Shown in pieces: positions 47,007 to 53,989 of a DNA stretch of 64,000 bases. This DNA comes from Alistipes sp. Marseille-P5061. GTDB taxonomy: Bacteria; Bacteroidota; Bacteroidia; Bacteroidales; Rikenellaceae. The translations under genes were made by a program, and so were the position numbers. The first letter of the stretch is position 1; each line of letters opens with the position of its first letter. The notes beneath the pieces were generated by a model. The model was not told the DNA's origin, did not search any database, and saw nothing but the letters and a program-made list of their open reading frames with translations. The stretch is from positions 253,120-317,119 of the forward strand of contig NZ_LT985748.1 of assembly GCF_900290115.1 (NCBI RefSeq), in the 5' to 3' direction.

Positions 47007-48152
47007 ATGCTCACCCCCCATACGGCATTCTCCGATTCGAAACCCCACTACGAACTGCTGGACGGCCTGCGCGGCGTCGCCGCTCTGCTGGTGGTCTGGT
47101 ACCACCTCTTCGAGGCCTTCGCCACCAGCCCCGTCGACCAGCGCTTCAACCACGGCTATCTGGCCGTCGACTTCTTCTTCCTCCTTTCGGGATTCGTGAT
47201 TGGCTACGCCTACGACGAGCGGTGGGGCCGCGGGCTGCGCATGCGCGATTTCATCAAGCGGCGCCTCATCCGCCTCCACCCGATGGTCGTCCTGGGGGCG
47301 CTGCTGGGTGCCGCAGCCTTTTTCGTGCAGGGAAGCGTGCGTTGGAACGGCGAGCCGGTCTCGACCGGCATGGTGCTTGCGGCACTGCTCTGCGGCCTGC
47401 TGCTCATCCCCGCATGGCCCGGCGCCGGGCACGAGGTGCGCGGCAACGGCGAGATGTATCCGCTCAACGGCCCCGGCTGGTCGCTCTTCTTTGAGTATCT
47501 GGGCAACCTGCTCTACATGCTGCTGCTCCGGCGGCTGCCGACGCGCTGGCTGACGTTGCTCGTCGCCCTCACGGGTGCGGCGCTGGCGGCCTTTGCCATC
47601 GGCGACCTGTCGGGATACGGCCATCTGGGGGTAGGGTGGACACTCGCCGGCAGCAACTTCCCGGGCGGAATGCTGCGGCTGCTCTTCGCCTTCCCCGCCG
47701 GACTGCTCCTCGCACGGCGCTTCCGCCCGGTGCGCATCCGCGGCGCCTTCTGGCTCTGCAGCCTCTCGCTGGCCGTGCTGCTCGCCATGCCCTATGTCGG
47801 CTCGGAGCAGAACCACCTCTTCAACGGCCTCTACGACACGCTCAGCACGCTGCTGCTCTTCCCGCTGCTGCTCTGGCTCGGCGCCTCGGGCCATGCCACG
47901 GATGCGGCAACGGCCCGCATCTGCGGCTTTCTGGGCGACATCTCCTATCCGCTCTACATGGTACACTATCCCTCGATGTACCTCTTCTACGCCTGGGTAT
48001 GGAACCACGGATACACCTTCTCCGAGGTGTGGCCCGTCGCCGCAGCGCTCTTTGCGGGCAACATCCTGCTGGCGTGGTTCGTGCTGAAAATCTACGACGA
48101 ACCGCTGCGTCGCCTCCTCACGGCTCGCTTCCTCCGGCCGCGCCGGCAGTAG
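47007..48152 (+). CDS. Acyltransferase 3 family membrane protein
   Basis: 381 residues with about ten membrane segments. The N-terminal LLDGLRGVAALLVVWYHL carries the conserved Arg of the family and the DGLRG signature. The segment RRLIRLHPMVVLG carries the second conserved Arg region. Such proteins move acetyl or similar groups onto extracellular polysaccharide or other surface acceptors. No polysaccharide cluster is adjacent, so the acceptor is unknown. It is followed by the cysK leader. Confidence 0.85.
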   Translation: MLTPHTAFSDSKPHYELLDGLRGVAALLVVWYHLFEAFATSPVDQRFNHGYLAVDFFFLLSGFVIGYAYDERWGRGLRMRDFIKRRLIRLHPMVVLGALLGAAAFFVQGSVRWNGEPVSTGMVLAALLCGLLLIPAWPGAGHEVRGNGEMYPLNGPGWSLFFEYLGNLLYMLLLRRLPTRWLTLLVALTGAALAAFAIGDLSGYGHLGVGWTLAGSNFPGGMLRLLFAFPAGLLLARRFRPVRIRGAFWLCSLSLAVLLAMPYVGSEQNHLFNGLYDTLSTLLLFPLLLWLGASGHATDAATARICGFLGDISYPLYMVHYPSMYLFYAWVWNHGYTFSEVWPVAAALFAGNILLAWFVLKIYDEPLRRLLTARFLRPRRQ

Positions 48153-48180
48153 CCCCCCCCGAAATTTTCGCACTTGGGAT

Positions 48181-48211
48181 TTGCTTTTTTTCGTTTCGTT
48201 TTCTATTTTTG
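48181..48211 (+). promoter_or_regulatory. Promoter of the cysK leader
   Basis: TTG (48181-48183), 20-nt spacer, TATTTTTG (48204-48211). The transcript should start near 48218, giving a leader of about 220 nt before cysK. Confidence 0.7.
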
Positions 48212-48275
48212 TCCGCTGAATTGCCTTTCGGCATTCATCGAGACTATGAGGAGCCAGAAACAACAGATTGCAACC

Positions 48276-48341
48276 ATGAACCTCCGGATGCGTTCCGCAT
48301 ACGCCGGCTGGTGCATCGCGGCTTGTTGTTGCTGTTGTTAA
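48276..48341 (+). CDS. Cysteine-run leader peptide of cysK (putative attenuator ORF)
   Basis: 21 codons from the ATG at 48276 (an in-frame ATG at 48246 would give 31). The peptide ends with five consecutive Cys codons (48324-48338: TGT TGT TGC TGT TGT) before TAA, and another Cys codon lies at 48312. Six of the last nine residues are cysteine. The promoter lies upstream and a terminator with a competing hairpin lies just downstream, ahead of cysteine synthase. By analogy with his, trp and leu leaders, ribosome stalling on these codons when Cys-tRNA is scarce would change RNA folding. It is not expected to be a functional protein. No experimental support can be read from sequence. Confidence 0.75.
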   Translation: MNLRMRSAYAGWCIAACCCCC

Positions 48342-48348
48342 AGCTCAT

Positions 48349-48394
48349 CCCGAAGGAGCGGGCTTAAGGCCCGTCCATGCGGCTCCTCTTTTTT
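48349..48394 (+). terminator. Attenuator: intrinsic terminator with an overlapping alternative hairpin
   Basis: Terminator: AGGAGC (48354-48359) pairs with GCTCCT (48382-48387), with an inner GGGC/GCCC stem, then six T (48389-48394). Competing stem: CCCG (48349-48352) pairs with CGGG (48359-48362), using bases of the terminator's left arm. A further option is GCTC (48343-48346) with GAGC (48356-48359). The leader stop codon lies 12 bases upstream of the terminator, within reach of a stalled ribosome. Confidence 0.7.
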
Positions 48395-48439
48395 CCGCTT
48401 TTTACATAATCAAGGTTTTACCCAAACTCATCGTATCCA

Positions 48440-49348
48440 ATGGTGAAGAATAACATTCTGGAAACCATCGGCAATACGCCGATGGTACGCATCAACCGGC
48501 TGAACAGCAAACCCAACGTCGAAATATGGGCCAAACTCGAAGGATTCAACCCCACGGGCAGCATCAAGGACCGCATCGCGCTCCAGATGATTGAGCAGGC
48601 CGAACGCGAAGGGCGCCTCCGCCCGGGGCAGACCATCATCGAGCCAACATCGGGCAATACGGGCATCGGACTGGCCGTCATCGGCATCGTCAAAGGCTAT
48701 CCCGTCGAAATCGTGATGAGCCGCGCCGTCTCGGTCGAACGGCGGAAAATCATCCGCTCCTACGGGGCGAAGGTCACCCTGACCCCGGCCGAGGAGGGGA
48801 CCGACGGAGCCATTCGTCTGGCCCGGCGGCTGGTTGCCGAGCATCCCGGCAAGTACTTCATGCCCGACCAGTTCAGCAACGCGCAGAACTACCAGGCGCA
48901 CTACGAGAAGACGGCCGCCGAAATCTGGGAACAGACCGAAGGGCGCATCGACTACTTCGTCAGCGCACTCGGTACCTCGGGCACCATCATGGGAATCTCC
49001 CGCTTTCTGAAGGCACGCAACCCCGACATCCGGATTGTCTCGGCCCATCCGGTCCGCGGCCACTACATCCAGGGGCTGAAGAACATGGAGGAGGCCATCG
49101 TACCGGCCATCTACGACCCCTCGCGCATCGACCTGCAGGTTATGGTCGAGAGCGAGGAGGCCATTGCCATGGCGCGTCAGATTATCGCCCGCGAGGGGAT
49201 TTTCGCCGGCATGAGCAGCGGCGCCGCCATGATTGCGGCCCTGCACATCGCCGAGCGGATTGACCACGGCAACATCGTCGTCATCTTCCCCGACCGGGCC
49301 GAGAAGTACCTCAGCACCACCATGTTCGCCGACCTTGCGGAGGATTAG
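48440..49348 (+). CDS. cysK: Cysteine synthase (CysK/CysM family)
   Basis: 302 residues, cytoplasmic PLP enzyme that makes L-cysteine from an activated serine (O-acetylserine) and sulfide. The PLP lysine lies in NPTGSIKDR, the substrate loop is EPTSGNTGIG, and the phosphate-binding glycines lie in SALGTSGTIMG. PTGSIKDR instead of PGGSVKDR is more like CysM-type or O-phosphoserine-using enzymes, so the exact substrate is open. It has its own promoter and cysteine-rich leader, so it is probably controlled by cysteine supply. A strong terminator follows. Confidence 0.9.
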   Translation: MVKNNILETIGNTPMVRINRLNSKPNVEIWAKLEGFNPTGSIKDRIALQMIEQAEREGRLRPGQTIIEPTSGNTGIGLAVIGIVKGYPVEIVMSRAVSVERRKIIRSYGAKVTLTPAEEGTDGAIRLARRLVAEHPGKYFMPDQFSNAQNYQAHYEKTAAEIWEQTEGRIDYFVSALGTSGTIMGISRFLKARNPDIRIVSAHPVRGHYIQGLKNMEEAIVPAIYDPSRIDLQVMVESEEAIAMARQIIAREGIFAGMSSGAAMIAALHIAERIDHGNIVVIFPDRAEKYLSTTMFADLAED

Positions 49349-53422: not shown

Positions 53423-53508
53423 ATCTGGTTATTGCCGGATTTTCTGCCAAAGGTACGCAAAAATCCCGATTATTCCGCCCCCGGCGGGCCATTTTGCACG
53501 CCGCGCTT

Positions 53509-53537
53509 TTGTATTTTCCCGAAAAGAGTTATCTTTG
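53509..53537 (+). promoter_or_regulatory. Promoter of tmRNA
   Basis: TTG (53509-53511), 18-nt spacer, TATCTTTG (53530-53537), 42 bases before the mature 5' end. Confidence 0.55.
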
Positions 53538-53579: not shown

Positions 53580-53980
53580 GGGGGTGCCCGGTTTTGACAG
53601 CAGGCAGAGTCGGATTGTAAGCACGTCGAGCGCTGTGTGGCGGCTCGTAAATCCCGACACTCGACAATCAAATGGCAATAACAGCTATGCACTCGCTGCC
53701 TAATTTTCAAGGAAAATTAGCTTAATCGCCGGGTCCAAGGCGGCTTGGCGACGAGTATCCCGGGCGACTGTTCCGCTCCTTAACGGTTGTCCATATGGGG
53801 TATCATCAATTTGGAGATAGTGCGACGGAGGGTTCCGGCCGGCGTGCGAAATCAAAGGAACTGGGCTTGGGGTTAGGTTGCCGCCTGCCAGACCCCGGGA
53901 GAAGGACCAAACGGCGGATAAGCGTGTAGAAAGCTTTCGGGCTCCTTGTTTGGACGCGGGTTCGACTCCCGCCACCTCCA
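53580..53980 (+). ncRNA. ssrA: tmRNA
   Basis: About 401 nt. The 5' end GGGGGTG pairs with the 3' CACCTCC, and the tRNA-like T-arm GGGTTCGACTCCC lies near the 3' end. The tag-coding frame begins at about 53674 (GGC AAT AAC AGC ...) and ends at TAA 53701-53703, giving a tag GNNSYALAA. It frees stalled ribosomes and marks the unfinished proteins for proteolysis. The genome continues ACAA after the acceptor rather than ACCA, so CCA would be added after transcription. Confidence 0.93.
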
Positions 53981-53989
53981 CAAAACGAC

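Follow-up and report, generated by a model that had tools for sequence, protein, structure and literature searches.

Why does a cysteine synthase gene of Alistipes sp. Marseille-P5061 follow a short reading frame that ends in five consecutive cysteine codons? The sequence-only reading of this DNA had proposed cysteine-sensing attenuation, and we followed that proposal in the window, by which we mean the whole analysed stretch of 64,000 nucleotides, as well as in the genomes of relatives. Proteobacterial attenuators of the trp and his type combine control codons with alternative antiterminator and terminator hairpins and use the position of the ribosome as the switch. In Bacteroidetes, Bacteroid-trp RNA is located ahead of Trp genes and is regarded as a probable attenuator as well. 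We consider it probable that the window locus works as a ribosome-mediated attenuator, with charged tRNA-Cys as the sensed signal and a single cysteine synthase gene under its control. The locus is made up of the following elements, given in window coordinates.

47007–48152: upstream gene, an acyltransferase (Acyl_transf_3 match)
48180–48211, + strand: promoter motif of the Bacteroidota type, TTTG at 48180–48183 and TAnnTTTG, here TATTTTTG, at 48204–48211
48246–48341, + strand: leader ORF of 31 codons, MRSQKQQIATMNLRMRSAYAGWCIAACCCCC and stop, with the C-terminal end ...WCIAACCCCC
48248–48255, + strand: 8-base complement GAGGAGCC, a perfect match to the terminator 3' arm at 48381–48388
48276, + strand: alternative leader start, an in-frame ATG at codon 11 that gives 21 codons
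48312–48338, + strand: control codons, one Cys codon at 48312–48314 and five consecutive ones at 48324–48338
48342–48384, + strand: predicted competing structures from folding, two alternative pairings, each around an inner hairpin and using bases of the terminator 3' arm
48354–48394, + strand: intrinsic terminator, consisting of a hairpin (48354–48387), a C and T6 (48389–48394)
48440–49348, + strand: cysteine synthase gene, CysK/CysM family and closer to CysM, the putative regulated gene

Direct reading of the DNA confirmed the overall observation that a promoter, a Cys-ending ORF and a terminator lie ahead of a cysteine synthase gene, the order being acyltransferase gene, promoter motif, leader ORF, 12-base spacer, terminator and cysteine synthase gene. 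The same kind of evidence supplies the control codons, the putative target enzyme and the Cys leaders of relatives. The promoter had been placed at 48181–48211 and indeed lies there, its motif beginning one base earlier at 48180; both ORF starts, the five terminal Cys codons and the sixth Cys codon four codons ahead of them are likewise as described, and the leader stop TAA (48339–48341) directly adjoins the fifth codon of the run. We take the two-part motif TTTG/TAnnTTTG to be the promoter consensus of Bacteroidota. It has 10 matches in the window, some of them overlapping, against 0.13 expected, while a generic promoter scan over the locus gave no promoter-like site. A start for a shared transcript of leader and gene is therewith present at the level of a motif, and transcription would probably begin at about 48217–48220. 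When the relatives treated below are included, 21 of 27 Cys leaders have TAnnTTTG in the 80 nt ahead of them, compared with 3.6% of shuffles, in a test where L309 and L310 offered only 25 and 23 bases of upstream sequence. As a separate observation, the same two-part motif occurs at 53508–53537 (+), some 40 bases upstream of the tmRNA gene at 53580–53983 (+).

The terminator, too, was found as the sequence-only reading had placed it, 12 bases after the leader stop: the hairpin folds, with a GGAGC/GCTCC outer stem, an inner G+C stem and a 9-base bulge, the folding energy of 48353–48388 is −14.9 kcal/mol, and C plus T6 follow. A generic terminator scan missed this hairpin (9-base bulge) and returned two other weak sites, with 1.2 expected, and automatic terminator finders chose a wrong or competing hairpin, so that we take the window terminator from direct folding of the transcript. 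The leader as a whole has an MFE z of −1.67, and 14 of 200 shuffles fold equally low. Rfam gave nothing at gathering level at this locus, the only match being a lncRNA family on the opposite strand (E 0.44), and the covariance-model matches there include no His, Leu, Thr or Trp leader, no Bacteroid-trp, no T-box and no SAM riboswitch.

Could the cysteine run be mere chance, an untranslated stretch of TGY repeats in front of the ordinary terminator of the acyltransferase gene? Four Cys codons in a row (TGY x4) are as common in the window's genome as in the reversed control, with 41 matches (30 of them examined as sequence, the other 11 by place) versus 42, and because of this equality a four-Cys run alone would mean little. 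A terminator 200 bases downstream of the acyltransferase gene would not be odd either, and terminator-like hairpins also occur in 15 of 113 leader-negative regions. Runs of at least five Cys codons, however, are found at just 5 places on both strands of the 2.67 Mb genome, and by an arithmetic estimate about 0.0004 of them would be expected over the 400 bases that precede the cysteine synthase gene, on its own strand. Since the run moreover belongs to a short ORF that has a promoter motif ahead of it and a cysteine synthase gene after it, and since the closest homologues of the enzyme carry Cys-run leaders too, we regard a chance origin as very improbable. The greater weight for the leader being real comes from these relatives and not from window statistics. 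We claim no uniqueness for the window leader, because long shadow frames overlap even this true leader and ORF length is uninformative on gene context. Pattern searches alone gave little: ATG plus four Cys codons matched 8 times in 101 genus genomes versus 18 times in the reversed control, and a six-Cys pattern in 393 genomes of the order was dropped after 30 examined loci had yielded 4 ATG-started short ORFs, 3 of them at contig ends, with no downstream gene found.

How such a leader would act can be laid out along the classical scheme. RNA polymerase would start at about 48217–48220, with a ribosome following over the leader ORF. At ample Cys-tRNA, the ribosome would pass the five Cys codons, reach the stop at 48339 and cover the bases up to about 48351, leaving the hairpin 48354–48387 and T6 to end transcription. 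In cysteine shortage it would stall on the Cys run, and the bases 3' of the leader stop would stay free to pair with the terminator 3' arm; with the terminator blocked, RNA polymerase would continue into the cysteine synthase gene. Leader translation, stalling, the competing pairing in the window and the response to cysteine are steps that we infer. Assuming a front edge of the ribosome 13 bases past the first base of the A-site codon, a ribosome on any one of the five Cys codons gives a predicted terminator probability of 0.04–0.10; once it stands at the stop codon the value is 0.89, falling to 0.84 or 0.71 when the edge is moved forward by one or by two bases.

For the stalled state, folding predicts two pairings that are almost equal in energy. 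CCG 48350–48352 pairs with CGG 48380–48382 in the first, whereas AGCTCAT 48342–48348 pairs with 48377–48384 in the second, which becomes the best fold once the first is weakened. In single-base test copies at 48349–48352 the stalled-state terminator probability therefore stays at 0.00–0.27 and the terminator is not freed, because the second pairing takes over, and this substitution singles out neither pairing. The same predicted switch appears in 76 of 500 shuffles of the 12-base spacer, which is not significant, and we accordingly grade a ribosome-dependent antiterminator in the window as plausible only. Complementarity of the spacer to the terminator 5' arm is also no better than in shuffles (p 0.79). 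The folding that the sequence-only reading had called for thus returns a terminator and a predicted ribosome-position switch, yet one that 15% of shuffles equal, and it is the Cys-run leaders in relatives that favour its core claim of ribosome-mediated cysteine sensing. Its particular competitor, a CCCG/CGGG stem between 48349–48352 and 48359–48362, did not survive. The letters are present, and the predicted pairing probability is 0.70 in a transcript ending at 48362; it is 0.01 in one ending at 48364 and 0.00–0.01 in all longer transcripts tested, so that the stem lasts for about two bases of transcription.

Folded free of ribosomes, the leader has an MFE structure in which GAGGAGCC at 48248–48255 pairs with the terminator 3' arm. 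Of 3000 shuffles, 124 contain some 8-mer that is complementary to the terminator region, and 2 contain the exact GAGGAGCC 8-mer. This pairing may be due to chance, or it may add a further layer that would be opened by a ribosome starting at 48246. The window locus has the testable defining features of a classical amino acid attenuator except for a significant antiterminator in its own sequence. It differs from the trp and his attenuators in its signal, cysteine, in its lineage, in a stop directly after the control codons and in the predicted pairing of the leader 5' end with the terminator 3' arm in the absence of a ribosome.

The downstream gene had been called cysK. Its product of 302 aa is indeed a cysteine synthase, passing the subfamily model TIGR01136 with 381 bits (cut-off 344.15), and within the CysK/CysM family it is CysM-like: in a ranking confined to models that bear the name cysK or cysM, CysM comes first (366.9, cut-off 394.2) and CysK second (332, cut-off 350.95), both scores lying below the cut-off. 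Searched with its own sequence, the enzyme is the sole match in its own genome. No serine O-acetyltransferase (CysE, TIGR01172) exceeds the cut-off in that genome, under a model that only 8 of 14 control genomes pass, and three weak TIGR01172 matches there look like sugar acetyltransferases.

Conserved leaders were found in the genus in front of another gene, the one for CysK. We searched 180 genus genomes with the CysK of G023, the one copy scanned with TIGR01139, which it passes. Matches at E 1e-60 or better were obtained in 36 of the 180 genomes (17 of 70 among the more complete), and many genus members may not make cysteine through such a synthase. These 36 genomes hold 14 CysK genes (73–100% identity to the G023 CysK) and 22 genes of the window type. 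All 14 CysK genes have an ATG-started Cys leader with 4–6 Cys codons that begins 183–207 bases upstream, typically with the motif NHTMCCCAAxCCRCRRxVPAAGR. Among the 22 window-type genes, at least three Cys codons in a row occur upstream of the window gene itself and of no other (L194 offering just 224 bases upstream), and no other genome in the genus sample carries the window's leader. The terminators of the CysK leaders pass an automatic test in 13 of 14 cases versus 15 of 113 leader-negative regions; in L186 the hairpin is present and its T tract broken, and a first automatic finder had found none for L186 and L187. The comparison of upstream regions proposed by the sequence-only reading hence finds Cys leader and terminator conserved in the genus CysK set, whereas most Bacteroidales cysteine synthase genes examined have no leader. 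That reading had named a lack of conservation in relatives as refuting, and its core claim withstands this check.

A candidate antiterminator is seen in 12 of the 14 CysK leaders, where its pairing with the terminator 5' arm has an energy of −16.5 to −21.8 kcal/mol (L183 and L184, identical over this region, are both counted). The segment corresponds to the codons for VPAAG or their counterparts and starts 11–13 bases after the last Cys codon, in a search that itself began at base 11, which is where a ribosome stalled on the last Cys codon would just leave the segment free. The pairing beats mononucleotide shuffles at the 5% level in 10 of 14 leaders, these being related, non-independent sequences; L183 and L185 just miss this level, and the two most divergent leaders, L188 and L189, have no antiterminator pairing. 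When transcripts end short of the terminator 3' arm and the ribosome occupies the Cys codons, the 5' arm is predicted to pair upstream with a mean probability of about 0.6 or more in these 12 leaders, and this value drops once the ribosome has moved past these codons, least so in L186 and L187. When the complete transcripts are folded to equilibrium the switch is slight, since the terminators are then the stronger structures. As the antiterminator is visible only in transcripts cut before the 3' arm, the argument is therefore a kinetic one.

In a MAFFT alignment of the CysK set (L183 and L184 being off by one base on its 3' side), the terminator pairs keep 86.9% of cells paired, compared with 37.5–71.7% when slid. 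Five cells in three pairs changed on both sides, a value reached in 5 of 500 shuffles for the cells and in 93 of 500 for the pairs. Neither the covariation score, with 99 of 500, nor the count of pair types, with 491 of 500, is outstanding. For the antiterminator, 90.6% of cells are paired versus 17.1–69.9% when slid, and 212 of 500 shuffles do as well; just one cell changed on both sides. With almost no covariation, covariation therefore does not prove the antiterminator.

Turning to the closest relatives of the enzyme, 56 genomes of the Butyricimonas family were searched and contained 8 copies of the window enzyme type at 67–85% identity. Five of these (L295, L296, L297, L292 and L299) have leaders whose final six or seven Cys codons are followed by no more than three residues, and the closest homologues, at 84–85% identity, have leaders ending in ...GMGRACCCCCCL, ...GMGRACCCCCCCL and ...GNACCCCCCCRCR at the stop. 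A sixth copy, L300 (67% identity), has a leader with ...SSCCCFLK..., and no Cys leader was found for L293 and L298. Across the loci examined in this family, 9 of 30 have a Cys leader and 21 have none. Outside the Cys run, related loci encode differing peptides. This bears on the idea that the Cys-rich micropeptide acts as a protein, for instance in metal binding or thiol redox sensing, for which leader peptides that act in trans in other bacteria set a precedent (peTrpL, in the text available from PMC7298713). Given the divergence outside the run, and since the residues after the run in the genus CysK set are also explained by terminator-arm pairing, we think a function as a protein highly unlikely.

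No clear U-tract terminator was found between leader and gene in L295, L296, L297, L292 and L299; the automatic test passes L295 and L299 on T-poor tails and fails the other three. L295 and L296 have in common a stable hairpin that lacks a T tract. The output of the Butyricimonas-family leaders may hence differ from the intrinsic termination of the window. Might the window locus also respond to cysteine by another output, with stalling preventing Rho-dependent termination or unmasking the start of the cysteine synthase gene, an output of the kind proposed for cys leaders in Actinobacteria? Besides these relatives, Actinobacteria speak for this, as Cys-run leaders without terminators precede cys operons and cbs there, in Mycobacterium and Propionibacterium cys operons and at Bifidobacterium longum cbs, according to the accessible text of PMC1262725, and as cysteine genes of M. 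smegmatis and mycobacterial polycysteine uORFs are cited as being under translation attenuation in the portion consulted of PMC13236596. In the window, by contrast, a hairpin with T6 stands 12 bases past the leader stop, and 13 of the 14 genus CysK leaders have a terminator behind them, which makes a non-termination output rather unlikely for the window, and attenuation by intrinsic termination stays our preferred reading.

Polycysteine leader ORFs are, as the sequence-only reading had stated, known from some actinobacteria (PMC1262725, again for the text available). They share with the window the short ORF with a Cys run near its stop before cysteine biosynthesis genes and differ in having no conserved terminator hairpin, whereas the window has an intrinsic terminator and a Bacteroidota promoter motif. 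Another known case is the uORFC-8-2 motif before cysS in Rhodobacterales, described, in the part of PMC8632094 at hand, with Cys codons and a likely intrinsic terminator and proposed to act by ribosome-mediated attenuation. It resembles the window in this order of uORF, with its Cys codons, and likely terminator; unlike the window, it has two tandem Cys codons, targets a cysteinyl-tRNA synthetase and belongs to alphaproteobacteria. Bacteroid-trp RNA (RF01692), a candidate structured RNA of Bacteroidetes (PMC2864571, in the text seen), concerns another amino acid, and the window has no Rfam match. The attenuator specificities in Rfam at the time of a 2013 survey were His, Leu, Thr and Trp, by the available part of PMC3766115, and the text of a 2010 attenuator survey (PMC2965389) contains neither cysK nor Bacteroid and mentions cysteine nowhere but in a reference. 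The B. thetaiotaomicron transcriptome paper reports leader-peptide-like ORFs in long 5' UTRs, and the three mentions of cysteine in its accessible text concern growth media (PMC7366714). Among the papers listed in searches of open-licence PMC articles, none showed a cysteine attenuator in Bacteroidota, in agreement with the sequence-only reading. Cysteine attenuation is a known kind of device, for which we found no earlier description in this combination of phylum and signal. The surprise is moderate, and the genus CysK leaders as well as the mixed outputs in relatives add weight beyond the window alone.

If the preferred reading is true, some gut Bacteroidales would control cysteine synthesis by reading the supply of Cys-tRNA on the ribosome, and commensal sulfur metabolism would be tied to cysteine without a regulator protein. 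Cysteine attenuation would be extended to Bacteroidota, with natural variants to compare that have or lack a terminator and carry single or multiple ORFs, and it would help to explain short ORFs in long 5' UTRs of Bacteroidota such as those of B. thetaiotaomicron (in the text available from PMC7366714).

How widespread are such leaders? In 80 named loci with window-type homologues (L031–L110, where L039 and L107 have only 215 and 155 bases upstream), a run of at least three Cys codons in a short upstream ORF occurs only in Butyricimonas sp. Marseille-P3923. Among 80 upstream regions from other Bacteroidales genomes, 3 satisfy a Cys-cluster rule versus 2 of 80 antisense regions and 1 of 800 dinucleotide shuffles. 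These three regions, L214, L273 and L281, each combine a Cys leader with a strong terminator. The antiterminator of L273 starts 13 bases past the last Cys codon and is equalled in 0 of 300 shuffles, and the pairings in L214 and L281 are not significant against shuffles. L010 is a fourth such leader, with a TTG start and a weaker hairpin, and L313 has a leader with ...NCCCCCQSLDC... plus a terminator. In both L309 and L310 a single leader holds three short ORFs, similar between the two genomes, which end in ...CCCCCCC, ...CCCSC and ...TVCCG at the respective stops; the genes that follow are CBS-like and cystathionine gamma-synthase/lyase-like, none over a curated cut-off, and no terminator was found between the short ORFs and these genes. 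The third short ORF of L310, searched in 345 phylum genomes, gave one weak match (E 0.04) and no sign of a wide family. In a phylum search, the top 30 CysK matches all belonged to a single family of another class, and none of them has three or more Cys codons in succession. We did not count as leaders those frames whose Cys codons form doublets or lie scattered (e.g. L041, L093, L201, L202, L204, L206 and L207), as were L152 (CCC, TTG start), L158 and others. Taking all leaders together, 22 of 28 pass the terminator rule compared with 15 of 113 leader-negative regions, the 22 including L295 and L299 with their T-poor tails and the window by way of its competing hairpin. Among the loci examined, the Cys-leader device looks patchy, being regular before the genus CysK and in part of the Butyricimonas family and rare elsewhere. 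By eye, at least six leaders look unlike each other, the three-ORF array of L309 and L310 among them; the genes that they precede are of CysM-like, CysK, other cysteine-synthase-like and CBS-like/cystathionine-lyase-like types.

Where the window copy came from was approached with a 94-row enzyme tree. One branch with 98/92 support sets apart 86 rows, which comprise every other Alistipes row of the window type and also take in L298 and L300. On the other side stand the window enzyme, L031 (the same gene as L292), L295, L296, L297, L299, Odoribacter laneus and a distant outgroup. The shortest paths from the window enzyme lead to L295, L296 and L297; we are unsure of its exact place, with a very long outgroup branch and an open fork next to the window. 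The simplest reading would be that enzyme and leader were transferred together into the window's lineage. Tentatively, and with somewhat more doubt than belief, we suggest that Cys-codon attenuation is recurrent in Bacteroidales, having arisen or been rebuilt several times, and that the window copy came from a Butyricimonas-like donor and gained its intrinsic terminator, which replaced a terminator-free output. Mapped onto the same tree, presence of the leader requires 4 changes compared with 6.8 in shuffles, with 0 of 500 shuffles as low.
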